From Pirellulaceae bacterium (GTDB lineage: Bacteria; Planctomycetota; Planctomycetia; Pirellulales; Pirellulaceae): 64,000 bases of DNA. Within the stretch, counting starts at the first letter, position 1; each line of letters starts with the position of its first letter. The position numbers and the translations under genes are program-made. The stretch is from the NCBI GenBank assembly GCA_026004795.1, contig BPJV01000006.1:124001-188000 (forward strand), given 5' to 3'. The notes below the pieces were generated by a model, which saw only the letters and a list, made by a program, of their open reading frames with translations, did not search any database and was not told the DNA's origin. This document shows positions 1 through 35,737 of this stretch, one piece after another.

Positions 1-300
1 TCCCTTTGGTCCCCGAGCCGGGAGGGGGCCACATGACGCAGCGGTCCCCCGAGCCGCGAGGCGGGCCACACGACGCAGCTTCACCGGAGAGCCTTGCTGA
101 AAAACCCTCCCCCGGCTGCGCCGACCCCTCCCGTGGGAAAAGTCCGGTTATTGAGTAGCTTTGCAAGTCGTGGTTTTTCCAACGGGAGGGGTAGGGGTGA
201 TTTCGGAACTGCGCCGACCTCTCCCGTCCTTCAAAATGCTCGATTTACGCAAGTTCACCCACAAGCTTCAATGTCACCACGACGGGAGGGGTGAGGAGAT
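1..300 (-). repeat. Partial copy of the long hairpin-rich repeat unit, inverted orientation
   Basis: This stretch has no credible gene. It matches, in reverse complement, the repeat unit found at 3050-3690 and five times at 26990-29860. It carries the same inverted repeat of CCCCTCCCGT(T/G)GGAAAA arms (about 134-200) around a spacer containing the ATTGAGTAGCTTTGCAAGTCG string. It also carries the same flanking elements, such as the GGGGGCCACATGACGCAGCGG-like tracts near its start. Short reading frames here are products of the repeat composition. Confidence 0.85.
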
Positions 301-329
301 TGGGAGCTGTGTCGAGGACTTCCGTTGCA

Positions 330-660
330 GAAGCTTGTTGCCTCGTTGCCTCGTTCCCAGGCTCCGCCTGGGAACGCCCTGCACCAGAGGCTCCGCCTCA
401 CAATCGCTCTTTCATTCGCGTAAAGCCCTACACCAGTAACTCCGCCTCGCGATGTGCAGGCGGAGCCTGCGAGGCATTGGGTTCCCAGGCAGAGCCTGGG
501 AACCAGAGAACCATGAAGCGCTCGAGCCACTGCTTTTTCCTTTCCTCGTTCCCAGGCTCCGCCTGGGAACGCCCTGCATCAGAGACTCTGCCTCACGATC
601 GCCCCTGTCCGCACGCCGTACCAACCGTGCGCCCGCTCGCTGGACATTCCCTACTCGCTA
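330..660. repeat. Cluster of REP-like palindromes upstream of rfbB
   Basis: Three 23-bp palindromes of the form GTTCCCAGG-CTCCG-CCTGGGAAC lie at about 353-375, 481-503 and 548-570; the middle one has a different 5-bp centre. Each can form a 9-bp perfect stem. They are separated by related motifs such as CTCCGCCTC and CGGAGCCTGCGAGG. I see no gene. The same palindromes recur at 2740-3015 and 26260-26740, so they form a dispersed family that brackets the polysaccharide genes. Confidence 0.8.
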
Positions 661-668
661 ACTAACCG

Positions 669-1776
669 ATGACTTCGAACACTCCACAACGCCGCATCCT
701 GGTCACCGGGGGAGCCGGTTTTATCGGCTCGAACCTGGTCCGCTACTTGATCGACCAAGGCCACACGGTCCTGAACGTCGACAAGCTGACCTATGCCGGC
801 AACTTGAACTCGCTGGCCGACATCGCCGATCATCCGCAGTACCAGTTCGCTCAGCGTCGACATCACCGACGAAGCGGCCATCCGCGAGCTGTTTACGGAG
901 TTTCGGCCCGACGCGGTGATGCACCTGGCCGCCGAAAGCCACGTCGACCGGTCGATCGATGGCCCCGACATCTTCATCCACACCAACGTCGTCGGCACGC
1001 TGACCATGCTCAAGGAAGCCCTGCGGTACTGGCAAGGGCTGGACGCCGACGCCCGCGAGGCTTTCCGCTTCCTGCACGTGTCGACCGACGAGGTGTACGG
1101 ATCGCTCAGCGACGATGGCTACTTCACCGAGCAGACCGCCTACGACCCGCACTCGCCCTACTCGGCCAGCAAAGCCGCCTCGGATCACCTGGCCCGAGCC
1201 TGGTTCCACACCTACGGTTTGCCGGTGATGGTCTCCAACTGCTCGAACAACTACGGCCCGTACCAGTTTCCCGAGAAGCTGATTCCGGTGGTGATCCTCA
1301 AGTGCTTGCGCGAGGAGCCGATTCCGGTGTACGGCCGCGGCGAGAACGTTCGCGATTGGCTGTTCGTTGAAGACCACTGCCACGCCTTGGCCACGATCAT
1401 CGACCGCGGGAGTCCCGGCGAGACGTACAACATCGGCGGCAACAACGAGATGCGGAACATCGACCTGGTGCGGCTGCTGTGCCAGTTGCTCGACGAGCTC
1501 TCGCCGCGCCCCAGCGCCGGCGGCACTTCGCCCCCCAGCTACGCCGACCTGATCACCTTCGTCGCCGACCGTCCCGGGCACGACTGGCGGTACGCCATCG
1601 ACGCCAGCAAGATCCGTCGCCAGCTCGGTTGGTCCCCCCGCCACGACCGCCACACCGGATTCCGCAAGACCGTCCAATGGTACCTCGACAACCAATCCTG
1701 GTGGCAACCCATCCTCGACGGAACCTACCGATTGGAACGTCAAGGAACTGGGTTGGCCAAGGGAGGTGAGTCGTGA
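669..1776 (+). CDS. rfbB: dTDP-glucose 4,6-dehydratase, with an apparent one-base frameshift
   Basis: The enzyme converts dTDP-glucose to dTDP-4-keto-6-deoxyglucose, the precursor of rhamnose and of 3-amino-3,6-dideoxyhexoses. The N-terminal frame from ATG 669 shows the NAD-binding GGAGFIGSN loop. The frame from about 856 onward continues with [19 protein letters not shown] and the catalytic YSASK. The two frames join if one base near 851-855 is removed, giving 1107 nt or 368 residues, the normal size for the family. As written, frame 1 would run on as nonsense to 1370. Everything downstream is well conserved, so a recent indel or sequence error is more likely than an old pseudogene. The stop overlaps the next start (GTGA, 1773-1776). 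Confidence 0.93.
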
Positions 1777-2663
1777 TCGTTTTGCTAGGTGGCAGCGGGT
1801 ACGTGGGGACAGCCTTTCGTCGCTTTCTCAAGGCGCAGGAGATTCCCTTTGAAAGCTGGTCTCGGGTCGAAATCGACTACTACGATCCACGGGCCCTTCG
1901 CCAGGCGCTTGAGCGCGTCGGGGCGGAGTTCCTGATCAACTGTGCCGGCTACACGGGCAAACCCAACGTCGACGCGTGCGAGATTCACAAGACCGAATGC
2001 TTGCTCGGCAACGCGGTGCTTCCGGGACTGATTCGGCAGGCATGTGAAGAGGTCGGGTTGCCGTGGGGACATGTCTCCTCCGGCTGCATTTACTCCGGAT
2101 CGAAGGACGGGGGCCAGGGCTTTACCGAAGCAGACCCGCCGAACTTCTGTTTTCGCACGAATAATTGCAGTTGGTACTCCGGATGCAAGGCGCTGGGGGA
2201 AGAATGCCTGGCCGATGCCGACAATGTGTACGTCTGGCGGTTGCGGATTCCGTTCGACCATCGCGACAGTCCGCGAAACTACTTGAGCAAAGTGATGCGG
2301 TACGACCGCTTGCTCGATGCAGCCAACTCGCTGTCCCACTTGGACGACTTCGTAGCCGCCTGCTGGCACACCTGGAGCCGTCGAGCGCCGGCAGGAATCT
2401 ACAATTGCACCAACACCGGCTACACCACCACGCGGGATGTCGTTCAGTGGATCCAGGAAGAATTGGGGATCGAGCGCGAGTTTCGTTTTTTTGCGAACGA
2501 GGCCGAGTTCATGCAACTGGGCCAGCACACGCCGCGCAGCAACTGCATCCTGGACAACGCGAAGCTGCGTAGCACGGGATTCGACATGCCCACCGTTGAA
2601 CAAGCCGTTCGGCGTGCCCTGCGCCAGTGGCAATGGGACAACAAACTGGCCGCTGTAAGCTGA
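1773..2663 (+). CDS. RmlD-like sugar-nucleotide reductase/epimerase (SDR)
   Basis: This is a 296-residue extended short-chain dehydrogenase. The Rossmann motif GGSGYVG lies at residues 6-12, NCAGYT near 55, SSGCIYSG near 103 and the catalytic YSGCK near 134. It resembles dTDP-4-dehydrorhamnose reductases and the plant-type nucleotide-rhamnose synthase reductase domain. It starts at GTG 1773, overlapping the rfbB stop by 4 bp, so the two are translationally coupled and it should act on an rfbB-derived keto-sugar. No rfbC epimerase is visible in the window, so rhamnose synthesis is not proven. The exact product (rhamnose or another 6-deoxyhexose) is open. Confidence 0.75.
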
Positions 2664-2668
2664 GAGCT

Positions 2669-2748
2669 CATCGACCATGACCCTACCTCGTGAAGGCATC
2701 GTTTCAGCGGGCGGTTCAGCGAAGCGGATGCCCCCAATCGCTTCCTAG
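2669..2748 (+). pseudogene. Remnant of an rfbA 5' end
   Basis: Starting six bases after the SDR stop, this stretch matches the beginning of the intact rfbA at 3795-3853 in about 49 of 59 positions without gaps, including the CATCGACC leader. It translates as MTLPREGIVSAGGSAKR..., against [17 protein letters not shown] in the intact gene, so the nucleotide-binding loop is recognisable. It then hits TAG at 2746-2748. Homology breaks off there and REP-like palindromes begin at once. It sits where the third gene of an rfbB-SDR-rfbA operon would start, so it looks like the original rfbA start, cut by an insertion. Confidence 0.8.
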
Positions 2749-3030
2749 TTCCCTGGCTCCGCCTGGGAACCCGATGCTCTGCAGGCTCCGCCTGCTCATC
2801 ACAAGACCAAAGCCTGGAATGCATTCCGTTTCCAACGAGAACGATCACGAGTTCCTGGTTTCCTGGTTCCCTGGCTCTGCCTGGGAACCCGCTGCCCTGC
2901 AGGCTCCGCCTGCTGATCGCAAGACAGAGCCTCCAATGCATTCCGTTCCTAACAGGAACGTTCGCGAGGCAGAGCCTCTGGCGCAGTGCGTTCCCAGGCG
3001 GAGCCTAGGAACGAGGAAACGAGGAAAGCT
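2740..3030. repeat. REP-like palindrome cluster downstream of the rfbA remnant
   Basis: Imperfect copies of the GTTCCCAGGCTCCGCCTGGGAAC family lie at about 2748-2771, 2868-2891 and 2990-3012. Between them are GCAGGCTCCGCCTGC palindromes at about 2783 and 2908. No gene is seen. Confidence 0.75.
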
Positions 3031-3049
3031 TGTGGGTGAACTTGCGTAA

Positions 3050-3690
3050 ATCGAGCATTTCGAAGGGCGGGAGGGATCGGCGCAGCTCCAAAAATTACCC
3101 TTACCCCTCCCGTTGGAAAAACTACGACTTGCCAAGCTGCTCAATAACCGGACTTTTCCAACGGGAGGGGTCGGCGCAGCCGGGGGGAGGGCTCTTCGGC
3201 ACGACTTTCGGGCGAAACGGAGTTTGTGGCCCCCTCGCGGCTCGGGGACCGCTGCGTCGTGTGGCCCCCTCCCGGCTCGGGCATAGTTGGTGAGGCATCG
3301 CTTGGTGGTGGTTTCTGCGCCGGCTCGCTTGGATCCTGTGGTGGTAATTCCCGAGCCGACCTCCCCCGTGAGGCGGGAAGGTGGGGTGGACGAAATGCCT
3401 GTGTTGGTATTCGCCTCACGGGGGAGGTGGGGAAGAAGGCGTTGATGGATCAGCGCGGATTAGGTCCGTGATGGTGTTCGCCTCACGGGGGAGGTGAGGA
3501 AGAAGGCGACAGCTGTGAGACGCCCTAGCATAAGGCAACGCACGAGGTGAGCATTCCAAGTCTTCCCACCCCTCCCGTTGGAAAAACCGCGAATCGCCGA
3601 GCTACTCAATAACCGGACTTTTCCAACGGGAGGGGTCGGGCGCAGCCGGGGGAGGGCTCTTCCCCCCACGCCGCGTCGCGTATTCCTGCC
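3050..3690 (+). repeat. Single dispersed copy of the ~621-bp hairpin repeat unit
   Basis: This carries the same ordered elements as the tandem array at 26990-29860. A first inverted repeat with CCCCTCCCGTTGGAAAA arms lies at about 3104-3168, then a CCCGGCTCGGG tract, then a second inverted repeat with CCTCCCCCGTGAGGCG arms (about 3361-3428), the CAGCTGTGAGACGCC string, and a second CCCCTCCCGTTGGAAAA hairpin near 3570-3636. Compared with the full units it lacks roughly 80 bp after GGTCCGTGATGGTG. No credible gene lies here. Confidence 0.85.
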
Positions 3691-3802
3691 CACCTGTCGG
3701 CGACGTTAGCAACTTGCCTGACATCCTGACATGGCGAACAGCTCCCGCAAACTTGATCGCTGCCAGGAACAACCCCCTCGCGACTCTTTGGCCACATCGA
3801 CC

Positions 3803-4678
3803 ATGACACTACCTCGTAAAGGCATCATTCTGGCAGGCGGTTCAGGAACGCGGCTGTACCCGATCACGCGGGTGGTCAGCAAACAGCTGCTGCCGGTCTA
3901 CGACAAACCGATGATCTACTACCCGCTGTCCGTCCTCATGCTGGCCGGAATCCGCGAGATTTTGATCATCACTACGCCGCAGGATCAGGACGCATTCCGA
4001 CGGCTGCTGGGCGACGGCAGCCAGTGGGGCATTTCGCTGCAGTACGCGGCGCAGCCCCGGCCGGAGGGGCTGGCCCAAGCCTTCATCATCGGCCGCGAGT
4101 TTGTGGGCAACCATCCGTCGTGTTTGATCCTTGGCGACAATATTTTTTATGGCCATGGTCTACCGCAACGGCTGAAGGCGGCCAACGAACGGTCGACCGG
4201 AGCGACCGTGTTCGGGTACTACGTGCACGATCCGCAGCGGTACGGTGTCGTCGCTTTTGATGACCAAGGCCGGGCAACCAGCATCGAAGAAAAACCGGTC
4301 CAGCCGAAATCGAACTACGCCGTGACCGGCCTCTATTTTTACGACAACGACGTGCTCGACATTGCCGCGTCGTTGAAACCGTCGGCCCGCGGCGAGCTGG
4401 AAATTACGGACGTCAATCGGGTTTATTTGGAGCGTGGCCAGCTGCACGTCGAACTCCTTGGCCGCGGCTTTGCCTGGCTCGACACCGGCACGCACGATTC
4501 GTTGCAACAAGCCTCCGCGTTTGTTCAAGTCATCGAGTCGCGGCAAGCCCTCAAGATCGCTTGTCCCGAAGAGATCGCCTACCGTGCCGGTTGGATCGAC
4601 GCCGACCAAGTCGCCACCATCGCCGCCACTATGCCCAACAGCGATTATGGGAATTATCTCCATCGGTTGATTGGATGA
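3803..4678 (+). CDS. rfbA: Glucose-1-phosphate thymidylyltransferase
   Basis: The enzyme joins glucose-1-phosphate and dTTP to make dTDP-glucose, the substrate of rfbB. The protein is 291 residues from ATG 3803, the normal family length. It has the nucleotidyltransferase signature [12 protein letters not shown] at about 12-23, [18 protein letters not shown] soon after, the metal-binding LGDNIFYG near 112, EEKP near 165 and [12 protein letters not shown] near 225. The longer frame from 3731 is rejected: the decayed copy at 2669 matches from just before ATG 3803, and the family starts there. It supplies both the rhamnose-type and the amino-deoxyhexose branches of this locus. It is flanked by fragments of a second, diverged rfbA. 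Confidence 0.96.
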
Positions 4679-4745
4679 GCCTCGTTGTGTTCCGGCGTCG
4701 TGGCGTGCCACGTGGTGCCTCGCCCTTGGTGCTCAAGTTGTACAA

Positions 4746-5814
4746 ATGAATCGAAAACGATATGAGTGGCTTGAAGTAGGACGGGGAATCGCCGCGATTT
4801 GGGTCGTACTGCATCATTGTGACCAGAGCTTCAACGCCTTCATGGCGGCCCCCGGTAACCGACCGAGTTTATTGGTGAATGGTTATCTTGGAGTCGATTT
4901 CTTCTTTATTCTATCAGGCTTCATCATCGCCTATTCAACGCAGCAGTTACAAAGTCGCGGGGGGGGGGGGGGGGGGGGGGTTAAACAATATGCGCTGTCG
5001 CGGATAACGCGGATATACATTCCGTATCTTCCTATTGGACTGGACGATGCTTCTTTTCTATTCTTTGTTTCCAGTCGTTAGTGCAGGCGATCGAAATATT
5101 GGGGTGGTATCATCTTTGTTTTTATGGCCTTCAAATAACCCGCCCGCCCTGTCCGTGGCATGGACATTGATTCATGAAATGGTGTTTTACACCATCTTTT
5201 CGTTCTTCTTTCTGAGCCGCCGGCTGCTGAATTTCCTACTGATCCTATGGGGCGTCACCATAGTGACACTTCATTTGGCCGATGTCGATTTCCCTCGTGC
5301 AGTCAACTATGTAATGTCTCCGCTGAATTTGGATTTCATTCTCGGGATTTGTATTTTTCATGTTAGGGAGATGCTTGCACGGAGTAAGGCGGATTACGTG
5401 ACGACAGGCGCGTTGATTATTGGGGTGGCCATCGTGTGGTGGAACGCGTCAACATGGGTCCCCAGTCGTGTCCTGGCATCGATAGGTTTCGGTCTTTTGC
5501 TGTTCGCGGTAACACTTCCCCCAATTCAAAAGATCACGGCACCGCGCGTACTGACCATTTTGGGTTCCGCATCGTATTCCATTTATCTTGTACACAATCC
5601 GGCACTATCGGCCCTTGCTAGAATCTGGACACGGATTGGCGAGCCACTTTCGCCGGGGATCGGTTACGCGTTCTTATCCCTACTAGCCATAACAATGGGG
5701 CTGTTGTACTGGTGGACGTACGAACAACCGGCAGTGGCATGGGTTAAGTCGATGGCGACGGGACGTAGTGGGATGAAGGAACGCAAGAGGTTACTTGAGC
5801 TTCCCAATTCTTGA
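4746..5814 (+). CDS. Acyltransferase 3 family membrane O-acyltransferase, with a 22-G tract and one frameshift
   Basis: This is a membrane enzyme that typically O-acetylates surface sugars (OafA/WecH-type). The N-terminal part has YEWLEVGRGIAAIWVVLHH, the usual start with the conserved His, then GYLGVDFFFILSGFII. The C-terminal part has ALSVAWTLIHEMVFY, several hydrophobic helices and the late SYSIYLVHNP motif. An unbroken run of 22 G (4959-4980) encodes seven Gly after QLQSR and keeps the frame. A separate extra base near 5042 then breaks the frame; removing it joins YLPIGL to TMLLFYSLFP and gives 355 residues, normal for the family. As written the product stops at 5081. Base composition is lower in GC than rfbA. 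Confidence 0.85.
4959..4980 (+). repeat. Homopolymer of 22 G inside the acyltransferase gene
   Basis: This is an uninterrupted poly-G run in coding sequence, read as seven Gly codons plus the first base of a Val codon. It lies at the junction after the second membrane segment, where the family normally has a cytoplasmic loop. Tracts of this kind are classic slipped-strand mispairing sites. They are also classic assembly artefacts. Confidence 0.95.
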
Positions 5815-5867
5815 CCGATTCATCGCGTGCAAATTTGTGCCGATCCGATATGTTCGCAGTTTCAGTT

Positions 5868-5927
5868 ATCGCCGCCACCATGCCCAATAGCGATTATGGA
5901 AATTATCTCTAGCGTTTGATTGGATGA
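5868..5927 (+). pseudogene. Remnant of an rfbA 3' end
   Basis: These 60 bp align without gaps to the last 60 bp of the intact rfbA (4619-4678), with 54 identities. Read in the rfbA frame they give [14 protein letters not shown], then TAG, then RLIG and the native TGA. Most differences are third-position changes, which means this copy diverged as a functional gene before it was broken. Together with the 5' fragment at 2669-2748 it frames the inserted segment. The rest of the 5815-6092 gap holds no gene that I can support. Confidence 0.85.
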
Positions 5928-6092
5928 GTCCAGGTAGCAACGCGAAATCGCTTTTTTCTGACTTGTCCTCCGGTCTGAATTAGTGAACTTTAGGGATTTA
6001 GATGGCATCAAACCGAACGCTAGTCATCTATCGAGTACCCATCTGTTCATAGCCTGTTCATAGCCGAATCCGAACGTCGTAATCACACCGGA

Positions 6093-6554
6093 ATGCACTC
6101 ACCTCCCATGATTCACCCGTTGGCCGATGTAAAGGCGGAAGAAATCGGTTGCGGAACCAAGATTTGGCAGTTTTGCGTTGTTCTGCAGGGGGCGAAAATC
6201 GGATCCGATTGCAATATTTGTTCCCACTGCTTTATCGAGAGTGATGTCATTGTTGGCGATCGGGTCACGATCAAGAACGGAGTTCAGCTGTGGAACGGGA
6301 CGCGGATTGAAAACGACGTTTTCATCGGCCCGAACGCGACCTTCACCAATGACAAATATCCACGAAGCAAGAACCACGATTTCGACTGCCTGGGCGTCAT
6401 CGTGCGACAGGGGGCTTCGATTGGTGCGGGAGCGGTTATCCTTCCTGGTATTGAAATTGGCGCGAATGCAATCGTCGGTGCCGGTGCGGTTGTGACAGAA
6501 GACGTCGCTGCGGACGCAACGGTGGTAGGTAATCCAGCAAGAAGAATCCGATGA
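6093..6554 (+). CDS. Sugar N-acetyltransferase, left-handed beta-helix (FdtC/QdtC-like)
   Basis: A 153-residue protein made almost entirely of hexapeptide repeats (for example [20 protein letters not shown] and [14 protein letters not shown]), ending in [10 protein letters not shown], the usual end of nucleotide-sugar N-acyltransferases. It resembles the enzymes that acetylate the 3-amino group of dTDP-3-amino-3,6-dideoxyhexoses (known for FdtC and WbpD-like proteins). The following two genes, a 3,4-ketoisomerase and a PLP aminotransferase, are the two preceding steps of that pathway. An alternative ATG at 6108 (MIHPLADV) is equally plausible. The stop overlaps the next start (ATGA). Confidence 0.82.
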
Positions 6555-6961
6555 ATATCGGCCGTTGCGGAATTATCGATCTACCCAAAATCGAAGATGC
6601 GCGTGGCAACCTGACATTTATTGAAGGTGGCCGCCATGTGCCATTCGATATCAAGCGAGTCTATTACCTTTACGACGTTCCCGGTGGAGCAGAGCGCGGC
6701 GGACATGCTCATAAAGAACTGGAGCAGTTGATCGTCGCCATGGCAGGTAGCTTTGATGTTGTGCTTAATGACGGAAAAGAAACGAAGCGTTTTCATCTAA
6801 ATCGTTCCTACTATGGGCTTTACGTGTGCCCGATGATCTGGCGGGAGCTGGATAATTTCTCTTCGGGTTCGGTGTGCATGGTATTGGCATCGAATCTCTA
6901 CGACGAGAACGACTATTTCCGTAATTATCAGCAGTACCTTGAAGCGCTGAGGGCTGGTTAG
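6551..6961 (+). CDS. dTDP-4-keto-6-deoxyglucose 3,4-ketoisomerase (FdtA/QdtA family)
   Basis: A 136-residue cupin of the WxcM-like family. It shifts the keto group of the rfbB product from C4 to C3. Diagnostic segments are the RGNLTFIE start, [26 protein letters not shown] with the metal/catalytic His residues, and [12 protein letters not shown]. In characterised enzymes two positions are reported to set product stereochemistry: QdtA has Tyr and Arg, FdtA has Arg and His. Here the aligned residues seem to be Arg (ARGNL, residue 18) and Arg (IWREL), a mixed pattern, so I cannot say whether the sugar has galacto (Fuc3NAc) or gluco (Qui3NAc) configuration. It overlaps its neighbours on both sides. 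Confidence 0.9.
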
Positions 6962-8085
6962 TGCTGATTCCATTTTTGGATCTACAGGCCGCTTACCGCG
7001 AACTCAAGGATGAGATCGATGCGGCAGTCGCTCGGGTGCTGAACAGCGGCTGGTACATCCTGGGCGAGGAGGTGGAGGCATTCGAGGCCGAGTGGGCGGC
7101 TTATTGCGAGGCCGATTACGCCGTAGGTGTGGCCAACGGGCTCGACGCGTTAACTCTCGCCCTGCGGGCGCTGGATATCGGGCCGGGCGATGAAGTGATC
7201 GTTCCGTCGAACACCTATATCGCTACCTGGCTTGCCGTATCGGCCGTTGGTGCGACGCCCGTTCCAGTAGAACCCGACCCCGCGACCTACAACATCGATC
7301 CACGCCGTATCGACGCGGCTGTCACGCCACGAACACGTGCGCTTCTGCCCGTACACCTTTATGGCCAGCCGGCGGACCTGGATCCCATCCTGGCCACTGC
7401 GCGCAAGCACGGCCTGGCGGTCGTGGAAGACGCCGCGCAGGCGCATGGAGCACGGTACAAAGGGCGCCGCATCGGCGGCCACGGCGACGTTGTCTGCTGG
7501 AGCTTTTACCCGGGAAAGAATCTTGGTGCCATGGGAGATGGCGGCGCCATCACCACCAACCGCGCCGATCTGGCCGACCGCATTCGCGTGCTTCGCAATT
7601 ACGGCAGCCGTGAAAAATACGTCAACGAGGTCAAGGGAGTGAACAGTCGGCTCGATCCGCTGCAAGCGGCAATCCTGCGCGTGAAGCTCCAACACCTCGA
7701 CGCCTGGACCGAGCGCCGCCGTGCGATTGCACGAGCCTACTCGGAAGGGCTGCGAGACACGGACCTGACCTTGCCGCAAGTGCCCGACTGGGCCGAACCC
7801 GTTTGGCATCTGTACGTCGTCCGTTCGCCCAAGCGCGACAAGCTTCAGGCGCAACTGACCCAGGCCGGCATCGGCACGCTGATCCACTATCCCATACCGC
7901 CCCACATGCAAGCCGCCTACGCCGAACTCGGCATCGCCCCTGATGCTCTCCCAATCGCCCGTGATCTGGCCCGTAGTGTCCTGAGCCTTCCCATGGGACC
8001 GCATATGCAAGAGCAGCAGAGTACAGTCGTTCTCGACATTGTAGTGGGCTCCGCTGCTGTAGGCCCTATCGGACGGAGCCGATGA
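6961..8085 (+). CDS. DegT/DnrJ/EryC1 PLP aminotransferase (FdtB/QdtB-like)
   Basis: A 374-residue sugar aminotransferase that would convert the 3-keto sugar to the 3-amino sugar. It begins [18 protein letters not shown], as FdtB-type enzymes do. It has [16 protein letters not shown], the PLP-contacting [15 protein letters not shown], and [16 protein letters not shown] with the Schiff-base Lys, followed by [24 protein letters not shown] 6961 overlaps the ketoisomerase TAG by one base. The last 20 or so residues (after [11 protein letters not shown]) are less typical of the family. Confidence 0.92.
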
Positions 8086-8114: not shown

Positions 8115-8607
8115 ATGAGAATGAGGTTGTTGGCGTGGCGCTTCGCCAGCGTCGGCCGCCGCGCCAGCCTGGGGGCGAATGTTCGCAATCGCCGGCCAGA
8201 CAAGGGTCTATCTGGGCGATCGAAGTACCATTCGTAGGGGAGTAATCCTCGGTGGGAATGGTGAGATCTGGATTGGCACTCGAACTGTGATCAACGAAGG
8301 CAGCATTATCGCAGCCGTCGAGAGAGTGACGATTGGTGACGACGTGATGATCGCTCCACGGGTCTATATCCTGGACGTCGATCACCGTTTTGACAGACGT
8401 GATATTCCGATTTCGCAACAAGGTTACATTACATCACCAGTCACAATAGGGAACGGAGTTTGGATCGGAACTGGGGCAGTAATCACGCGAGGAGTCAATA
8501 TCGGTGAGGGGGCAATCGTGGGCGCCAACAGCGTGGTGACGAAGGATGTCGCGCCTTACATGATCGTCGGTGGCGTACCAGCACGGAAGATTCGCGAGCG
8601 TCCCTGA
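8115..8607 (+). CDS. Hexapeptide-repeat sugar O-acetyltransferase, with an apparent one-base frameshift
   Basis: An acyltransferase of the left-handed beta-helix class related to WcaF/WbbJ. The frame from ATG 8115 reads [21 protein letters not shown], a typical amphipathic start. The conserved body then continues in the next frame ([45 protein letters not shown]). Removing one A at 8187-8188 joins them into 163 residues. The short open frame alone would start at ATG 8179. A His-containing segment ([10 protein letters not shown]) supplies the probable catalytic base. The acceptor is unknown; it probably decorates the same polysaccharide. Confidence 0.8.
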
Positions 8608-8610
8608 ACG

Positions 8611-10077
8611 ATGTCGAGTCTGCGTCGCGCAGTTGCAGTCCTCGGGGCGGTCTCTTTTGTGGGCACCGCAACGCAGGTTGCAAAGGGCAAAATAGGCGCC
8701 CTGCTGCTTGGAGCTGCCGGGGTCGGCGTTCTCAATCAACTCACCACGGTTTACAGCATACTGTTTATCGTCGCCGGTTTAGGTTTCTTTAACGGCATGA
8801 TCCACCGGATCACGATTGCGATTGAGAACGGCGATAGCACAATGGTGCGCGAACAGATTAACAGTGTTTTGCTTTTTCTTTGCGTCACCTCTTTGCTCGT
8901 CGTCGCCGGCTGCTTTGCGACCGCGGATCTGATCTCCGACTTGCTATTTGCTGACGGCGGCGAGCGGGCTGCCTATGTCAGAGCGGTGGTCTTGGCTGTG
9001 CCAATCGCCGTCCTGCAGCGTGTCTTCCGCGCCTATCTGAGCGCTAAGCGAGATTTGAAGGCTCTCGCCCGAGCTCAGACCGCTGCCGACGTTAGCAGCG
9101 TCTTACTGTTCGCTGTGGGCGTATCGATCTTTGGAATTTGGGGGGCGGTGTGCGCGTTTGTCAGCATGCATGCCCTGCTGCTAATGGGCATGGCGACGTA
9201 TTCGGTGCGTAGCGGAGGCGTGGGCTTGGTAATTCCGCGGCTTGCCTGGTTCAGATGGCGAGAAATTGCGCCCAATTTCGGATATGGTGTTAACGCACTT
9301 ATCGCGACAGCAGCCGCGTCAGGGGTCGCGATTATTATCGGTCGTCTAATCATTGCCCATTATGGACTCGCTGCGGCAGGGATCTTTGCCGTCGCTTCCA
9401 AGGTGGCAACCGTGTATTTAGGTGCATTGTATTCCGCAGCCAGCAGCTATTACTTTCCTACTCTGATTCGCGCGGTAACGCGTGAGCGATTGGAGGCCGA
9501 CGCCAATGCAGCTGTCGCTTTATATATGACAATCCTGCCGCTCGCAATGCTGTGCCTGATCGCGCTCGGTGACATCCTGATCCCGCTGCTTTTTAGCGAG
9601 GAGTTCCGCCCGGCTGTGATGGTGATGGCCGGTTTACTGTTGGGGGATATCTTCCGCGTGACCAGCGAGACTATCGGACTAACGATGCTTGCACGTCAGC
9701 ACCTGACGACCTGTACAATGCTTTACCTGCTCTATAGCGCCGGATTCGTCCTTTTATCGTGGTGGTTATTACCGGAACACGGGTTGCTAGGCGTGGCATA
9801 CGCATATCTTGTGATGCGCGCACTGGATTTCGTCCTCATTCTACTGGCGTGCCGCATGACGTTAGACATTGGCTTGACTTCGCACGGAATGAAGCCACTT
9901 GCGCTCGCATTCTTTGTCGTCGCCCCGATGGTTGTGGCGGAGATCCTACAAGCCAGCCAGATGAGTAAAATCATACTTGCGGGCGCACTTAGTCTATGCT
10001 GGGTTGCACTAGGATGGAATCTGCCGGAACAGTTGCGCATCCGTCAGATGTTGATTCGCAGATTGGCGTCTCAATGA
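8611..10077 (+). CDS. Wzx-type polysaccharide flippase
   Basis: A 488-residue, highly hydrophobic protein with about a dozen or more predicted membrane helices from end to end. It starts LRRAVAVLGAVSFVGTATQV and is followed by a repeated alternation of hydrophobic segments and short Arg/Lys loops. It looks like an O-antigen flippase of the MOP/MVF superfamily, which moves undecaprenyl-linked repeat units across the inner membrane. It sits 4 bp after the acetyltransferase and its stop overlaps the next glycosyltransferase start (ATGA). Pairing with the EpsG-like polymerase at 15929 points to a Wzx/Wzy-dependent pathway. Confidence 0.87.
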   Translation: MSSLRRAVAVLGAVSFVGTATQVAKGKIGALLLGAAGVGVLNQLTTVYSILFIVAGLGFFNGMIHRITIAIENGDSTMVREQINSVLLFLCVTSLLVVAGCFATADLISDLLFADGGERAAYVRAVVLAVPIAVLQRVFRAYLSAKRDLKALARAQTAADVSSVLLFAVGVSIFGIWGAVCAFVSMHALLLMGMATYSVRSGGVGLVIPRLAWFRWREIAPNFGYGVNALIATAAASGVAIIIGRLIIAHYGLAAAGIFAVASKVATVYLGALYSAASSYYFPTLIRAVTRERLEADANAAVALYMTILPLAMLCLIALGDILIPLLFSEEFRPAVMVMAGLLLGDIFRVTSETIGLTMLARQHLTTCTMLYLLYSAGFVLLSWWLLPEHGLLGVAYAYLVMRALDFVLILLACRMTLDIGLTSHGMKPLALAFFVVAPMVVAEILQASQMSKIILAGALSLCWVALGWNLPEQLRIRQMLIRRLASQ

Positions 10078-20724: not shown

Positions 20725-20940
20725 CTCCCTTGCACGGACCAGAATTGCTACATCGGTTCCCTCGCGCGAGTCGTCTCGCTCAAGACGTTGCCTCGTGCGA
20801 ATGGTCATCCCGTTGCGACACGAAGGGCGCACCAGTTTGAAAGACTGTGCCTGTCGGAATTTGTGCTGGAGATCGTCTATGGTAGCGGACCGGTCGGTGA
20901 CCAAGGGCATGTGGAGTCTGTACCAATAGCGCCGCCCACC

Positions 20941-22707
20941 ATGCATCCATCGCCCCTTCTATCATCGTTCCAGGATACCCCGCGCAGGTTATGGCGCACG
21001 GTCAACACGTTGAGTTGGGTGGATGTTGTAGCGTTTGCTACCATCGTTGGCCTGAGCCTGCTGTTGTACGGGCAGGGCAGGAAACTGTGGCAACAGCCCC
21101 ATTATCAATTCTTTCCGTTCGCTGTCGCAGCCTATCTCGCGCTCGTCTGGACCTATCGTCGCGGAGACGCCATTCCCAACACACCTCGGAGGCTTGCTGG
21201 CGACACGTTATTAGCCGGAGGTGTCCTTCTTGCTGGCCTCTCATCGATGCTGCTTTCTTACTGGCTCGCACACGTTGCCGCCATTGTGGTCGTGGTCGGT
21301 TGGTCCTTGATTCGATTGCCATCGGTAGGGGCGGGCAGACTAGTGGCATGGTCGAGCCTGTTATGGATCACACTGCCCATCCCGTTTGGGTTGGGTGTCG
21401 TGGCGATTCAGCGATTGCAATTCTTGTCAGGTCGGTCGGCAAGCCGATGGTTGGATGTACTGGCAGTTCCTCATGTCCCATATGGCATCGTACTGGAACT
21501 GAAAACGGGACGGTTGTTCGTCGACGAAGCGTGCAGTGGAGTGAACAGTTTGTATGCGCTCCTGGCACTCGCCTTGATCGTCGTGCTATGGCGACGTATG
21601 GGGCTGGCTACTTCGCTTGCCGTTTTGGCGTGTGTGCCTTTCTGGGCCTGGTTTGGCAATACCGTAAGGCTGGTAATGCTCGCCGCGCTGTTGGATTGGT
21701 TCGATTGGGATTTCGCCCACGGTTGGAAGCATACGGCGGTGGGGCTGGTGATCATGTTAGCTGTATGCTCGATGATGATTGCATCGATCGCTGCAATCGA
21801 TTCTTGTTTCAAATTCTTACACAGGCCCACCTTCCTTAAGAAGATGGCATTGATCCTAAAACGTCTAGTCCACCGCCCCCAAAAACCGAGTCGCACCAAA
21901 ATCACTCCCCTGGCGGGCGGGCCAGACATGGCCGAAGTGTGGCTTAAACCATCCTCGAGGGTATGGTGGTCGCTGCGTGTGCTGTCCGTCACGATCCTTG
22001 TATTGATTGGTCTAGCATGCTTGCCACTAACCATTTTATCCCGCAGCCGATTCTCCCAGGAGGCAAATAAGTACCGCGACATTCCAATCCGCTGGAAAAC
22101 CGTCAACCGCATATTCGATGAAGAGCTCTTGCCGCATGAGTATCGGAATATGCAACGAGTCAGTTTCGAGTTGATCCATCGTGAGGGCTCTAGGATTCAT
22201 CTGGGTGAATACTCGGCACTATGGGAGTTCCGAGATGGTAGTAGACAAGTACAAATTTCTTTGGACTTCGTTTTTCCTGGTTTCCATCAACTGGAAGATT
22301 GTTACCTGAAATCGGGATGCAAAATCAAGTTTCCGAGACGAACTTTGCTGGTCGGCACGGAGCCAGATTCGTCGAGAATGATCGAGGAAGTCCAGCTTCA
22401 CCCGCCGAACATCGGGGGAGCAACGTCTACCGCGTATCTTTGCTACATCGAGTTCTCACCTGATGGCCGCGATGTCTGGCGCCCGGAACCAACGGTGGTT
22501 GGCCGCATACGAGGCCGCCTTGCGGACGCCTTGAGCTGGCATGTGGGGGCGTTCCGCGAACCGCCAACCTTCCAATTGCAAATTCACGTTTCGGGAACTG
22601 ATTTCTCAGAGGCAGAAAAAGCACGCTATCAGCAGATCTTATTGGATGCCTACGAACTCCTCTTCCCTCGAGTGCAACAGTTGGTGGCGGAGGCGAGTTC
22701 GTCGTGA
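20941..22707 (+). CDS. xrtU: Exosortase (XrtU-like) fused to an EpsI-like C-terminal domain
   Basis: 588 residues from ATG 20941. The first ~330 residues are polytopic and carry the exosortase triad: Cys198 in DEACSGVNSL, Arg243 in NTVRLVML and His264 in GWKHTAVG. Exosortases are membrane transpeptidases that process C-terminally tagged exported proteins, often beside exopolysaccharide genes. After a further membrane helix (about 345-365) comes a ~220-residue soluble region with FHQLEDCYLKSGC, like the conserved His/Cys segment of EpsI, which is a separate gene or a fusion in other exosortase systems. The frame is open back to 20788, but the extra N-terminus has no exosortase character. The stop overlaps the next gene (GTGA). 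No target protein with an obvious sorting tail is in this window. Confidence 0.87.
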   Translation: MHPSPLLSSFQDTPRRLWRTVNTLSWVDVVAFATIVGLSLLLYGQGRKLWQQPHYQFFPFAVAAYLALVWTYRRGDAIPNTPRRLAGDTLLAGGVLLAGLSSMLLSYWLAHVAAIVVVVGWSLIRLPSVGAGRLVAWSSLLWITLPIPFGLGVVAIQRLQFLSGRSASRWLDVLAVPHVPYGIVLELKTGRLFVDEACSGVNSLYALLALALIVVLWRRMGLATSLAVLACVPFWAWFGNTVRLVMLAALLDWFDWDFAHGWKHTAVGLVIMLAVCSMMIASIAAIDSCFKFLHRPTFLKKMALILKRLVHRPQKPSRTKITPLAGGPDMAEVWLKPSSRVWWSLRVLSVTILVLIGLACLPLTILSRSRFSQEANKYRDIPIRWKTVNRIFDEELLPHEYRNMQRVSFELIHREGSRIHLGEYSALWEFRDGSRQVQISLDFVFPGFHQLEDCYLKSGCKIKFPRRTLLVGTEPDSSRMIEEVQLHPPNIGGATSTAYLCYIEFSPDGRDVWRPEPTVVGRIRGRLADALSWHVGAFREPPTFQLQIHVSGTDFSEAEKARYQQILLDAYELLFPRVQQLVAEASSS

Positions 22708-25929: not shown

Positions 25930-26985
25930 GAGGTTGGCCACCGGAGCTGCCCCCCGCCCCAACTGTTTCCACACTCAGGTTCAGCCGGGGGACGCCCTGC
26001 GCCCGTGGTTCTGCACGGAAGCGCTGAGCAACTAGTCGCTGACTGGTGACCGGTTCAGCCCGGGGGCGTCCTGCGTCCGTGGTTCTACCCTGGGATGAGC
26101 AGGCGGCGTGCTGTTGTGGAAGCCATCGCGTGTCAGCTGACTGCGCCAGTGTGGGTTTCTGGGCTGTGATGAGCAAAACGGAGCCTGCACCTCGTGAGGC
26201 GTAGACACGCGTGCTGGGCTTTACGCGAACCAAATGGGGATTGCGAGGCAGAGCCCTCTGATGCAGCGCGTTCCCAGGCGGAGCTCGGGAACGAGGAACG
26301 CATCGGTTCCCAACGAGAACTATCGCGGGGCAGCGCCTTTGGTGCAGTGCGTTCCCAGGCGGAGCCTGGGGCCGAGGAACGCGAACTAAATGGCGATTGC
26401 GAGGCAGAGCCTCTGGTGCAGCGCGTTCCCAGGCAGAGCCTGGGAACGAGGAAAACGAGGAAACGAGGCACGGGGGATTGCGAGGCGGAGCCTCTGGAGC
26501 GACGCGTTCCCAGGCGGAGCCTGGGAACAAGGCACTCTTTCTCTGGTTCCCAGACTCTGGCTGGGAACCCAATGTCTTGCAGGCTCCGCCTGCACATCGC
26601 GAGGCGGAGTTACTGGTTGTAGGGCTTCACGCGAACGAAAGGGCGATTGCGAGGCAGAGTCTTTGGTGCAGCGTGTTCCCAGGCGGAGCCTGGGAACCAG
26701 GAAAATCTCGTCCCCAGGCTCTGTTTGGGGACGCTCCGCAATCGCAGGCTCTGGCTCGTGGTAAGCGGGCGAAGCCTGGGAACTCTCCAAAACCTCCTTT
26801 CCGTCGCCTTCTCTCGCGGCTTAGGGAGTTTTCCTCTGCTCCCCTCACCTCGTCCTGCCGCTTAGCGTTTTCCTGAGCAGCGGCTATCTACCGTACGACG
26901 ACGCCTCGCGTCACCCACGCGGGCGCAGCTCCAACCCCTCCCGTCAAGGTTCCATCACAACTTATGTGCAAACCCGCGCTAATAG
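25930..26985. repeat. REP-like palindrome field downstream of the polysaccharide locus
   Basis: This contains two ~40-bp direct repeats (about 25978 and 26052; GGTTCAGCC(C)GGGGG...CCGTGGTTCT) and then at least six copies of the GTTCCCAGGC(T/G/A)...CCTGGGAAC palindrome between about 26268 and 26700, embedded in GCGAGGC(A/G)GAGCCTCTGGTGCAGCG strings. No protein with database-like character appears on either strand; the many Arg/Gly/Ser-rich frames come from the repeats. The last ~150 bp leads into the tandem array. Confidence 0.8.
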
Positions 26986-26989
26986 GATA

Positions 26990-29860
26990 CATCGAAGGAC
27001 GGGACGGGTCGGCGCAGCTCCATAATCCTCCTACCCCTCCCGTTGGAAAAACCACGAATTGCCAAGCTACTCAATAACCGGACTTTTCCAACGGGAGGGG
27101 TCGGCGCAGCCGGGGGAGGGTTCTTTGGCAAGGCTTTCCAGTGAAACTGCGTTAACGGCCGCTCCCGGTTCGGGAACCGCTGCGTCGTGTGGCCCCCTCC
27201 CGGCTCGGGAATCGTTGGTGAAGCATCGGTTGGTGGTGGTTTCAGCGCCGGCTCGCTTGGATCCTGTGGTGGTAATTCCCGAGCCGACCTCCCCCGTGAG
27301 GCGGGAAGGTCGGGTGGTCGAAATGCCCGTGTCGGTGTTCGCCTCACGGGGGAGGTGAGGAAGAAGGCGTTGATGGATCAGCGCGGATTAGGTCCGTGAT
27401 GGTGGGAGCCTCCGCGGAGAGGTGGGGAAGAGGGCCGCGAGAGTTCAGAGTAGGTAATCCCCCTTGCAGAGTTCGCCTCACGGGGGAGGTGAGGAAGAAG
27501 GCAACAGCTGTGAGACGCCATAGCATAAGGCAACGCACGAGGTGAGCACTCCAAGTCTTCCTACCCCTCCCGTTGGAAAAACCACGACTTGCCAAGCTAC
27601 TCAATAACCAGACTTTTCCCACGGGAGGGGTCGGCGCAGCTCCATAATCCTCCTACCCCTCCCGTTGGAAAAACCACGACTTGCGAAGCTACGTATTACC
27701 AGACTTTTCCAACGGGAGGGGTCGGCGCAGCCGGGGGAGGGCTCTTCGGCAAGGCTTTCCGGCGAAACTGCGTTAACGGCCGCTCCCGGTTCGCGGACCG
27801 CTGCGTCGTGTGGCCCCCTCCCGGCTCGGGAGTAGTTGGTGAAGCATCGGTTGGTGGTGGTTTCAGCGCCGGCTCGCTTGGATCGTGTGGTGGTAATTCC
27901 CGAGCCGACCTCCCCCGTGAGGCGGGAAGGTGGGGTGGTCGAAATGCCCGTGTTGGTATTCGCCTCACGGGGGAGGTGAGGAAGAAGGCGTTGATGGATC
28001 AGCGCGGATTAGGTCCGTGATTGTGGGAGCCTCTGCGGAGAGGTGAGGAAAAGGGCCGCGAGAGTTCAGAGTAGGTAATCCCCCTTGCAGAGTTCGCCTC
28101 ACGGGAGAGGTGAGGAAGAAGGCAACAGCTGTGAGACGCCATAGCATAAGGCAACGCACGAGGTGAGCATTCCAAGTCTTCCCACCCCTCCCGTGGGAAA
28201 ATCCACGAATCGCCAAGCTACTCAATAACCAGACTTTTCCCACGGGAGGGGTCGGCGCAGCTCCATAATCCTCCTACCCCTCCCGTTGGAAAAACCACGA
28301 CTTGCGAAGCTACGTATTACCAGACTTTTCCAACGGGAGGGGTCGGCGCAGCCGGGGGAGGGCTCTTCGGCAAGGCTTTCCGGCGAAACTGCGTTAACGG
28401 CCGCTCCCGGTTCGGGAACCGCTGCGTCGTGTGGCCCCCTCCCGGCTCGGGAATCGTTGGTGAAGCATCGCTTGGTGGTGGTTTCAGCGCCGGCTCGCTT
28501 GGATCCTGTGGTGGTAATTCCCGAGCCGACCTCCCCCGTGAGGCGGGAAGGTGGGGTGGAGGAAATGCCTGTGTTGGTATTCGCCTCACGGGGGAGGTGA
28601 GGAAGAAGGCGACAGCTGTGAGACGCCATAGCATGAGGCAACGCACGAGGTGAGCATTCCAAGTCTTCCCACCCCTCCCGTGGGAAAATCCACGACTTGC
28701 CAAGATCGCCAAGCTACTCAATAACCAGACTTTTGCCACGGGAGGGGTCGGCGCAGCTCCATAATCCTCCTACCCCTCCCGTTGGAAAAACCACGACTTG
28801 CGAAGCTACGTATTACCAGACTTTTCCAACGGGAGGGGTCGGCGCAGCCGGGGGAGGGCTCTTCGAGCAAGGCTTTCCGGCGAAACTGCGTTAACGGCCG
28901 CTCCTCGTTCGGGAACCGCTGCGTCGTGTGGCCCCCTCCCGGCTCGGGAGTAGTTGGTGAAGCATCGCTTGGTGGTGGTTTCAGTGCCGGCTCGCTTGGA
29001 TCCTGTGGTGGTAAATTCCGAGCCGACCTCCCCCGTGAGGCGGGAAGGTCGGGTGGTCGAAATGCCCGTGTTGGTATTCGCCTCACGGGGGAGGTGAGGA
29101 AGAAGGCGTTGATGGATCAGCGCGGATTAGGTCCGTGATGGTGGGAGCCTCTGCGGAGAGGTGGGGAAGAGGGCCGCGAGAGTTCAGAGTAGGTAATCCC
29201 CCTTGCAGAGTTCGCCTCACGGGAGAGGTGAGGAAGAAGGCAACAGCTGTGAGACGCCATAGCATAAGGCAACGCACGAGGTGAGCATTCCAAGTCCTCC
29301 CACCCCTCCCGTTGGAAAAACCACGACTTGCCAAGCTACTCAATAACCAGACTTTTCCCACGGGAGGGGTCGGCGCAGCTCCATAATCCTCCTACCCCTC
29401 CCGTTGGAAAAACCACGACTTGCGAAGCTACGTATTACCAGACTTTTCCAACGGGAGGGGTCGGCGCAGCCGGGGGAGGGCTCTTCGGCAAGGCTTTCCG
29501 GCGAAACTGCGTTAACGGCCGCTCCTCGTTCGGGAACCGCTGCGTCGTGTGGCCCCCTCCCGGCTCGGGCGTAGTTGGTGAAGCATCGCTTGGGGTGGTC
29601 TCTGTGCCGGCTCGCTTGGATCCTGTGGTGGTAAATTCCGAGCCGACCTCCCCCGTGAGGCGGGAAGGTCGGGTGGTCGAAATGCCCGTGTTGGTATTCG
29701 CCTCACGGGGGAGGTGAGGAAGAAGGCATTGATGGATCAGCGCGGATTAGGTCCGTGATGGTGGGAGCCTCCGCGGAGAGGTGGGGAAGAGGGCAGCGAG
29801 AGTTCAGAGTAGGTAATCCCCCTTGCAGAGTTCGCCTCACGGGGGAGGTGGGATAGCAGA
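26990..29860 (+). repeat. Tandem array: five copies of a ~621-bp hairpin-rich unit
   Basis: The anchor GCGTTAACGGCCGCTC recurs at about 27150, 27771, 28391, 28888 and 29510, so the spacings are about 621, 620, 497 and 622 bp. Each unit holds an inverted repeat with CCCCTCCCGTTGGAAAA arms around a ~30-bp spacer, a CCCGGCTCGGG tract, and a second inverted repeat with CCTCCCCCGTGAGGCG arms. Full units also hold a second copy of the first type near the CAGCTGTGAGACGCC string. The third interval is ~125 bp shorter: the segment between two GCCTCACGGGGGAGGTGAGG direct repeats has been lost. It is non-coding on both strands. Confidence 0.92.
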
Positions 29861-29994
29861 TGCGTTGGAGTGCCGTTTCAGGACGGAGGGGAATGGGTAC
29901 CCGATTTCCTCGAGCGGCGTTTCGCTCTTCCCCAGGCTTGCCTGACAACACCCCTTCGGCGCGGAGTTGGCGGCTGAGGGGGAGGAGAGGAGGC

Positions 29995-33201: not shown

Positions 33202-35737
33202 TCAATCGATATACAAGAACTCGTTGCTGCATAACAACACGCGTGCCACCGCGGCCCATTGCTCAAGTTCGTTCCCATCCTCTCCCTGGCCGGCGGCGTC
33301 GGCGGCTGAAGTCGTCATGTACCGCAGCACCGCCTCCAGTTCGGCTTGATGGGGCGGTCGGCCGAGGACGCGCTGCCACAGCCGCTCGACACGCGTTTGC
33401 GGATCATCCGACGGCGACCATACCCACTCCGCCAACTTCGCGCTTGCTTGGTGGACCAACTCACTATTCATCATCACCAGACTTTGCGGCGCAATGACCG
33501 ACTCCTGGCGATCGCCGGTGGGCGTGGCGGGATCGGGAAAATCAAACGCGGCCAGGAAATCGTAAACGGCCGAGCGATAGATGGGCTGGTACACACTGCG
33601 TCGCGGATTGTCGTACTGCTGCTGCTTGGAGGCAGTCCCGGTGACGTAGGTGCGATCCTTCAAGGGCATGAGCGATCCGCCGAACCGGGTATCCAATTGG
33701 CCGCTGACCGCTAGAATCGCATCGCGAATGGCTTCAGCCTCCAGCCGACGACGGGGAAAGCGCGACCAAAGCTCATTCTGAGGATCTCGCTGGGCGGCGT
33801 CCGCCGCTGCGGTACTGCTCATCTGGTAGGTCGCACTGAGCAACATCAGCCGGTGCAACCGTTTCATCGACCATCCGGACTCGACGAACTCGACGGCCAA
33901 CCAATCCAGCAATTCCGGGTGTGTGGGACGTTCGCCCAGGCGGCCGAAATTGTCCGTGGTGGGCACGATACCTCGACCGAACCGCCACCGCCACAAACGA
34001 TTGACGAACACCCGCGGCGTAAGTGGATGGCTGGGATGGGTGATCCAACGTGCCAACTCCAGACGCCCGCTTCCCAGGAGCTCAGGCGGCGGCACGCCCG
34101 GCGGGGGTCAGCACTTGCAAAAAGCCGCGGGGAACGACTGGGCCGGGGGTCAGGTAATTACCACGCAGGCTGATGGGAATGTCGCCAACGTCCCCCTCGG
34201 TCGGCCCCATCACGCGCACTGGTTGCGGTCGTGTCGTTTCGTGCTCGGCAATGGCGGCTTGCAACTCCTCCCAACGCTGGCGCTGCTCCTCGGGAACCCA
34301 TTTGGCCAGCTCTTTCTCCTCTGGCAGTTCGTAAGTGCTGCTCGTGGAAGCCGCCGGCGCGCCGCTGTCGTCTTGCTGGTTACCCTCCGAATTCTCGGAG
34401 GAACGAGCGGCCAAGTAGGCGGGACCGGCAACCTGTCGCCAGAACGCGTCGCGTTGGTCAAGCAACTCCCGGCGCCGCTTCTCAAACGCGGCCAATTGCT
34501 CCGCGAACCCCGGCGGATGTAGTTCGTGAATCCAAACCGGCGCCACGACCTTCAGATGCTCCATCGTTCGCGTGCTTTTCAGGATTCCGGCCAGTGCGTA
34601 GTAGTCTCGTGTGGGGATCGGATCGAACTTGTGGTCATGGCATCGCGCGCAGCCGATGGTGAGCCCCAGAAACGTTTGGCCGATCGTGCTCAACTGCTCG
34701 TCGACGATATCCATCTTCTTCTTTATCGGATCGTCGTCAGCAATCATCTTCGGGCCGACCGACAAGAATCCCGTGGCGGCAAGGCGTTGCACGCGCTCCT
34801 CGAACGGTTCGTCGCCCGCGGGGGTCATCAAATCGCCGGCAAGCTGATACTGCACGAATCGGTCGTAAGGCATATCGCGGTTGAAAGCGGTGAGCACCCA
34901 GTCGCGGTAGCGGTAGATATGCTCGAACGCCCAGTTCTCGTCCAAGCCATTGCTATCGGCGTAGCGGGCTACATCGAGCCAGTGCCGTCCCCACCGCTCG
35001 CCGTATCGCGGCGAGGCGAGCAATCGGTCGATCAGCCGCGCGTAAGCATCCGGCGACGGATCGGCCACGAAGGCATCGATTTGTTCGGGCGTCGGCGGCA
35101 GGCCCCACAGGTCCAAATAGACCCGCCGCACCAGGGTGCGCGGTGAGGCGGGCGGAGCGGGGGCGATGCCCTGTTTCTCCAGCTCTGCCAGGACGAAGTA
35201 GTCGATCGGCGTGCGACACCACGGACGATTCTTGACCAGCGGCAATACGGGTCGACGGGGAGGTTGAAAAGCCCAGAACTGCCGGTCCTCCGCCGTGACT
35301 TCCGTTCCCGTATCCCAAGTTGGTCGTCGCCGCTCGGCTCGCTGTCCCGGCCAAAAGGCTCCCTGGTCCACCCACTGCACCAGGGCACGAATTTCTTCGC
35401 CCGAGAGCTTCTCCCCTTCGGGCATTTGCAAATCTGCTTCGCTGTGCTGGACGGCATGGATCAGCAGACTCCGCTGGGCATCGCCTGGAACGATCGCCGG
35501 TCCGCGCTGCCCACCGTCGAGCAACCCCTGCAGCGAATCGACGCGCAAGCCCGATTCCTGCGCATCCGGCCCATGGCACTCAGAACAACGCGTTGCCAGA
35601 ATCGGCCGAATTTTCGATTCGAAGAATCGTTCCTGCTCCGCCGTCAATTCCGCCCCCGCGCGGCGCGGGGGCACGAGCAGCAACATCAGGCCGATGGCCA
35701 AGGCGACGAGCCGAGGGAAGAAGGATTGCGGCAACAT
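33202..35737 (-). CDS. Planctomycete cytochrome protein PSCyt1-PSCyt2(DUF1549)-PSD1(DUF1553), one frameshift
   Basis: 844 residues when one extra base near 34085-34093 is removed. The protein starts at ATG 35737 with a signal peptide ([13 protein letters not shown]). A c-type haem site, CSECH, lies near residue 55 ([16 protein letters not shown]). DUF1549 follows ([48 protein letters not shown]) with a second haem-like [12 protein letters not shown]. The DUF1553 part lies in the other frame: [57 protein letters not shown]. In the written frame the protein stops at TGA 34082-34084, just at the junction. A role in periplasmic or surface redox is likely; the true substrate is unknown. Confidence 0.9.

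Follow-up and report, generated by a model that had tools for sequence, protein, structure and literature searches.

Some integrative elements restore the end of the gene into which they insert and displace the old end. In the O-antigen clusters of Salmonella, remnant genes occur, group D2 retains a remnant of an H-repeat at its D1/E junction, and the rml genes, including part of rmlA, are shared recombination ends, according to the sections of PMC3715488 that treat them. REPtrons and TIRtrons, in the sections of PMC3733652 devoted to them, are dispersed units in which families of hairpin or inverted repeats flank one small gene, a tyrosine transposase. Here we set beside these systems a locus from a Pirellulaceae bacterium, in which a complete rfbA (glucose-1-phosphate thymidylyltransferase) lies, together with a hairpin-repeat module and an O-acyltransferase gene, between two short pieces of rfbA. 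The window, by which we mean the whole stretch of 64,000 nucleotides that was analysed, is C6:124001-188000 (contig BPJV01000006.1) of a genome (G000) of 5.59 Mb, assembled in 17 contigs with 97% completeness and 1.8% contamination; positions are those of the window unless a contig is named. As in Salmonella, at least in the sections cited, remnants sit inside a glycan cluster and a repeat marks the junction; the Salmonella remnants described there are of wzy or of the H-repeat, with sister serogroups to compare, whereas here they are both ends of the same rfbA. Displaced partial gene copies and an uninterrupted order in relatives (3 of 7) are both found, and by analogy the nest of rfbA sequences appears to be the same kind of scar in another phylum. 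Its parts are as follows:

2669 to 2739, plus strand: 5' piece of rfbA, 8 bp of upstream sequence and 21 codons, recognised by its sequence match to the intact gene

2738 to 3662, plus strand: hairpin-repeat module, GTTCCC palindromes followed by CACCCCTCCCGTTGGAAAA and CCTCCCCCGTGAGGCG hairpins

3663 to 3802, plus strand: spacer 5' of the intact rfbA, its final 8 bp common to the left piece

3803 to 4678, plus strand: intact rfbA, the single full copy found in the genome

4746 to 5814, plus strand: O-acyltransferase gene (Acyl_transf_3) that a frameshift near 5031-5044 divides in two

4959 to 4980, plus strand: run of 22 G within the acyltransferase gene, read from the sequence

5868 to 5928, plus strand: 3' piece of rfbA with an in-frame TAG, ending 1 bp past the original stop

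We read the nest as a recombination scar in a mosaic surface-glycan cluster of the O-antigen or exopolysaccharide type, left by two insertions, a reading to which we give about even confidence. The identity of the two pieces is plain from alignment: in a search of 96 kb, the left piece (2669-2739) matches 3795-3865 of the intact copy at 57 of 71 positions (E = 8e-14), and the right piece (5868-5928) matches 4619-4679 at 55 of 61 (E = 2.5e-19). The intact protein scores 513 bits against TIGR01207 (cut-off 361) over residues 6-290 and thus belongs to that family; both pieces are far too short for such a scan and were scored by alignment only. In the left piece, all 8 upstream bases and 49 of 63 coding bases equal those of the intact gene; the opening 32 bp match at 30, and the later codons differ mostly non-synonymously, with 5, 4 and 5 differences at codon positions 1, 2 and 3 and a GGSGTR motif that now reads GGSAKR, until the repeat sequence takes over at 2738-2742. 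The right piece has 6 differences in 60 coding bases, 5 of them at third codon positions, and a change of CAT to TAG that sets an in-frame stop 5 codons ahead of the original one. Beyond the limits of the pieces (8 bp before the gene and 1 bp after it on the outer side of the homology, codons 21 and 273 on the inner side), similarity falls abruptly to 0-5 of 10 bases. The genome search listed no second copy of the rest of the 3663-3802 spacer. A reading of the sequence alone had already pointed to these pieces and to the hairpin repeat, complete rfbA and O-acyltransferase between them, all of which we find; its 3' end at 5868-5927 (54 of 60) holds, with the in-frame TAG as a feature that it had not named, and extends to 5928, while its 5' piece, placed at 2669-2748 with about 17 codons, exists with other limits, the homology stopping at 2739 after 21 codons.

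Both pieces resemble the intact gene more than any other rfbA compared, the right one by far and the left one less decisively. Against the rfbA genes of 32 relatives, the right piece matches at 21-37 of 60 bases, compared with 54 for the intact gene, and the left piece at 25-42 of 63, compared with 49; a gap-tolerant comparison of 8 rows, 4 of them from genomes already among the 32, gives 27-35 of 60 and 31-42 of 63, respectively. Because the start of one relative's rfbA (G091) also matches the intact gene at 49 of 63, the left match is unexceptional for a conserved motif, and the link of this piece to the intact gene comes from the shared MTLPR start and the 8 identical upstream bases. The right piece has no match in the 198 other genomes of the family, and the intact protein reaches at most 70% identity in 59 other genomes and 72% at best among the 80 loci listed from the genome collection. 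The sequence-only reading would have been supported by pieces nearer to one non-cassette allele than to the intact gene; none of the genomes searched holds such an allele close enough for that comparison. Since both pieces are nearest to the intact gene, near-identical alleles or copies would have been involved.

This nearness would also follow if rfbA had been tandemly duplicated within the lineage and the outer copies had decayed to their ends around later insertions. Such a local amplification is improbable, as it needs three copies and two large deletions, each sparing the end that faces outwards, and no further rfbA piece is listed in the genome. Nor did the genome listing contain another full rfbA, or a copy from which the acyltransferase could have come; this listing did not give the right piece separately and so falls short of a full count of short pieces. 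A joint duplication of the preceding gene, a short-chain dehydrogenase/reductase (SDR), with rfbA was rejected, the sequence 5' of the intact gene being unrelated to the SDR end.

The order of genes in relatives shows where the displaced ends belong. The genes that frame the nest are:

669 to 1776, plus strand: rfbB (dTDP-glucose 4,6-dehydratase), with a reading-frame shift near 857

1773 to 2663, plus strand: RmlD-like SDR gene, 64.5 bits, under the TIGR01214 rmlD cut-off of 224

6093 to 6554, plus strand: fdtC-like hexapeptide acetyltransferase, from profile scan and comparison with relatives

6551 to 6961, plus strand: fdtA (PF05523), ketoisomerase-type, from profile scan and comparison with relatives

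6961 to 8085, plus strand: fdtB-like DegT aminotransferase, from profile scan and comparison with relatives

A search with FdtA of 396 genomes of the order gave 11 with a match at 1e-20, our own included, and gene order was compared in seven of the other 10 (G025, G122, G091, G102, G065, G393 and G411), leaving out G020, G210 and G296, in which FdtA identity is 36-39%. In three of the seven (G025, G122 and G091), rfbA is followed after 50-171 bp by an uninterrupted fdtC-fdtA-fdtB, which bears out the earlier proposal of an ancestral rfbA immediately upstream of the aminosugar genes and puts the right piece at the relatives' rfbA position. In G102 and G065, rfbA lies near the fdt genes with other sequence between, and in G393 and G411 (the latter on a contig of 8.9 kb) the stretch gave no rfbA match to the query. 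Neither the acyltransferase nor the repeat module was matched in these seven stretches, and the module was not found in the stretches of 11 relatives. On the other side of the gene, the SDR adjoins rfbA in two genomes of the genus (G012 and G013) and lies within about 3 kb of it in two more (G009 and G006).

The intact gene is itself out of step with its neighbours, being less similar to its counterparts than rfbB and FdtA are to theirs and belonging outside their clade. The rfbA proteins of G025, G122, G091 and G102 are 74-79% alike and form, with that of G020, a starred clade (100/99); the window protein is 64-67% identical to those of the four and falls outside, while window rfbB is 73% identical to those of G102 and G065 and window FdtA 76-78% to those of G122 and G091. 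The tree served only for this clade, as it has no starred set for the window gene and its bootstrap values had not stabilised. The rfbA of G065, which also bears fdt genes, is outside the clade as well (65-69% to its members), and exchange of rfbA at fdt-bearing loci may, from these identities, be common. The relatives' fdt-type rfbA was rejected as a source of the pieces, matching the right one at 27-30 of 60 and the left one at 31-40 of 63 (five fdt-locus rows and G020). Probably, then, the fdt-type gene had been replaced before the nest arose, the pieces being of the intact gene's type, a step that the sequence-only reading does not have. The claim that the lost gene was the rfbA of the ancestral operon is not supported by this pattern, in which the fdt-locus rfbA of most relatives belongs to another clade.

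From a starting order of rfbB - SDR - rfbA - fdtC - fdtA - fdtB, the hairpin-repeat module would have inserted at the 5' edge of rfbA. A foreign acyltransferase gene would have come in at the 3' edge of rfbA, probably separately and at a later time. Each insertion would have left a displaced copy of the gene end (71 bp and 61 bp) on its far side; the complete rfbA would have stayed functional while the displaced ends decayed. The end duplications may have come from break repair with template switching, or from incoming DNA that carried an rfbA end. We infer two events, and their order, from the way in which two insertions with end duplications explain all four edges (8 bp before the gene, 1 bp after it, and codons 21 and 273), and from unequal decay: at codon positions 1 and 2 together, the left piece differs at 9 of 42 sites and the right at 1 of 40 (Fisher p = 0.015).

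The sequence-only reading had proposed instead a single cassette of repeats, rfbA and acyltransferase. In that account, the cassette came from a close relative into the resident rfbA, whose middle was lost and whose ends remain; one event then makes the two pieces the remains of a single gene, correctly ordered and oriented, the relatives do carry rfbA at this place, and most differences in the right piece are at third positions, as between two functional alleles. Two whole alleles should, however, share sequence beyond the gene, and none is shared outside 8 bp before it and 1 bp after it; since the outside sequence is unrelated on both sides, the single event needs two extra breakpoints there. 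The unequal decay of the pieces also speaks against it, as does the lack of a donor with rfbA beside this acyltransferase among 117 rfbA loci. With abrupt outer edges and unequal decay, we regard the one-step cassette as a possible account, less probable than two insertions, which fit slightly better.

Several points weigh against the two insertions. Counted over all sites, decay does not differ significantly between the pieces (14 of 71 and 6 of 61, p = 0.15), and the decay test stands on 20 differences in total. In none of the six other repeat regions examined is there a flanking duplication like these. GC content at third codon positions (GC3) does not set the acyltransferase apart, because fdtC and fdtA are equally low: it is 0.54-0.55 in the acyltransferase, 0.57 in fdtC and 0.53 in fdtA, with 0.73 in rfbA and 0.74 in the SDR. 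Finally, the excess of third-position differences in the right piece (5 of 6) would be expected from two separately evolving functional alleles; its p is 0.018 against one third and 0.076 against 0.46, a hand estimate of what one-sided decay should give. The earlier suggestion that both alleles were functional accordingly finds backing in the right piece and none in the left, where 5 of 14 differences are at third positions.

The nest could also be an artefact of assembly or of mixed strains, in which two alleles from one population were joined; broken reading frames in rfbB, in the acyltransferase and in a PSCyt2/PSD1 pair suggest residual indel errors, and a run of 22 G lies inside the nest itself. 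The pieces, however, differ by substitutions and not by indels, one of them with a two-base change to TAG, and the assembly is in few contigs, nearly complete and little contaminated; we consider this account very unlikely, slightly more so than local amplification. Read as two insertions, the nest would record how a glycan cluster was put together step by step in a bacterium other than the well-studied enterobacteria, and it illustrates that displaced gene ends alone do not prove a one-step cassette swap. The succession of complete gene, insert and displaced gene-end copy also resembles integrative elements that restore a gene end; the insert here differs from theirs, as no integrase was found among the ORFs (open reading frames) of at least 80 aa between 4679 and 5867, where the gene present is the acyltransferase.

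The acyltransferase is rare in the order: its C-terminal part has matches in 4 other genomes of the 396 (E 1e-10) at 29-34% identity, and it was not matched at any of the 117 rfbA loci compared. Its run of 22 G is the longest of five G or C runs of at least 12 in the genome and may be a contingency tract or a sequencing artefact. Phase variation by the run alone is not supported by this sequence: the run leaves the frame open, the break comes only 50-65 bp further on, and the intervening stretch has a stop in the other frame. A literature search that combined homopolymeric-tract phase variation with Planctomycetes gave a sole match, by its title on Chlamydia.

The module in the nest is one copy of a composite repeat, whose GTTCCC palindromes are dispersed through the genome. 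All 33 matches to 3029-3700 lie within C6 or at one place in C2, and two arrays stand at the ends of the glycan cluster:

1 to 610, minus strand: inner end of the left hairpin-repeat array, with more pieces outside the window to about C6:116.5k

26183 to 29867, plus strand: right hairpin-repeat array, GTTCCC palindromes followed by five large units at steps of 497-621 bp

The left pieces on C6 (about 116.5-124.3k, with genes between) are on the minus strand, and the GTTCCC palindromes of that array reach C6:114.2k; the nest copy and the right array are on the plus strand. The 26-kb cluster is therefore bracketed by inverted arrays, rfbB and the SDR by an inverted pair, and the part from rfbA to 26 kb by direct copies, an arrangement in which ordinary recombination between repeat copies could invert or delete segments. 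The larger repeat unit was found in none of 14 other genomes of the genus (73-99% complete). No Rfam match reached the gathering score in window positions 1-30500, and within 2600-6100 promoter and terminator scans found fewer sites than shuffled sequence gave on average. Of 200 shuffles of 3029-3200, 16 reached a fold no worse than that of the real sequence, yet an 18-bp stem is plain. A copy of the large repeat also lies far from the cluster, at C2:734569-735807, between an ORF without a Pfam match and a WD40 gene; it has no flanking duplication. Sequence-specific target duplication as a regular feature of the module was rejected on the six other repeat regions mentioned above.

The left array holds the genome's only gene for a DUF559 (Vsr-like nuclease) protein (C6:121877-122374), and in the wider family the association of such genes with inverted repeats is well supported. 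DUF559 is matched in 109 of 199 family genomes; among the 30 best-scoring loci, which are not a random draw, 29 have enough flank, and 27 of these show an inverted match between their 400-bp flanks (E 1e-3 or better), as against 0 of 29 rfbA loci and 1 of 174 sliding stretches from 15 loci, controls that are not matched for intergenic position. The flank match of the window genome's own gene is weak, at 20 nt. In plasmid loci of other phyla, 7 of 10 DUF559 genes have inverted repeats in their flanks, one of them with a match of only 15 nt. One family genome (G206) has 15 DUF559 matches; seven of the nine copies compared have units of 0.73-0.89 kb in common, an eighth has about 400 bp of them, and for the ninth the comparison gave no match. 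The ends of the shared units vary somewhat by pair, the match between two loci (L246 and L251) reaching about 0.1 kb further on the right, and the copies compared show no clear target duplication. These dispersed units of about 0.8 kb look like a small mobile element, and in the stretches examined DUF559 copies stand in a row in two further genomes, five in G035 and four in G140.

The motif GGGGWSAS occurs at 1.21 per kb in 29 DUF559 loci of relatives, compared with 0.15 in 29 rfbA loci, and a motif count found none in the window's own module. In the relevant part of PMC3733652 it is the consensus for some of the inverted repeats around tyrosine transposases, and on this motif the repeats of DUF559 loci and of tyrosine transposases may be related. 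The likeness to REPtrons and TIRtrons, as that source presents them, lies in repeat families flanking one small gene in dispersed copies; the difference is the gene, a tyrosine transposase there and DUF559 here, and none of 7 ORFs scanned on the left-array side encodes such a transposase. It is conceivable that the hairpin module of the nest belongs to a family of small mobile elements with DUF559, set between inverted hairpin repeats, as their sole gene, and that breaks made by the nuclease at the arrays around the cluster drive the gain and loss of glycan genes and leave long gene-end duplications of the rfbA type. We think this unlikely, slightly more so because the relatives' repeats fit the tyrosine-transposase consensus; that DUF559 itself moves the repeats, and that such a system made the nest, are guesses. 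A DUF559 Vsr-like nuclease lies behind SOS induction in Caulobacter lacking a methyltransferase, in the part of PMC12907096 concerned with it. Within the literature searched for DUF559, no paper also has 'inverted repeats', those with 'palindromic' are by title on other matters and the one with 'tandem repeats' is by title on Legionella; subscription papers were mostly outside this search, and the association may have been published. It may be more novel than the rfbA nest, and the DUF559 genes that lie between inverted hairpin repeats in several phyla possibly represent an overlooked kind of small mobile element.

As for the wider setting, profile scans give the glycan cluster rfbB, the RmlD-like SDR, rfbA, Acyl_transf_3, the fdtC-like gene, fdtA and the fdtB-like gene, followed by glycosyltransferases, an FkbM methyltransferase, EpsG, an exosortase with an XrtU C-terminal domain (20788-22704) and part of a UDP-sugar dehydrogenase, to an end at about 25.9 kb. 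The ORF at 8179 is hexapeptide-like and cross-matches the fdtC loci of relatives, and that at 8611 is flippase-like, a name given from appearance only. Around the cluster are genes for PSCyt1/PSCyt2, PSD1 and DUF1501 proteins, which are typical of planctomycetes. PSCyt2 and PSD1 domains normally lie within one protein; here the pair is split at about 34085-34095, and this reading-frame break, like those in rfbB (857) and the acyltransferase (5031-5044), is perhaps a residual indel error of the assembly. A second exosortase-like gene, with sub-threshold scores, lies at C6:117916-120099, between pieces of the left repeat array.

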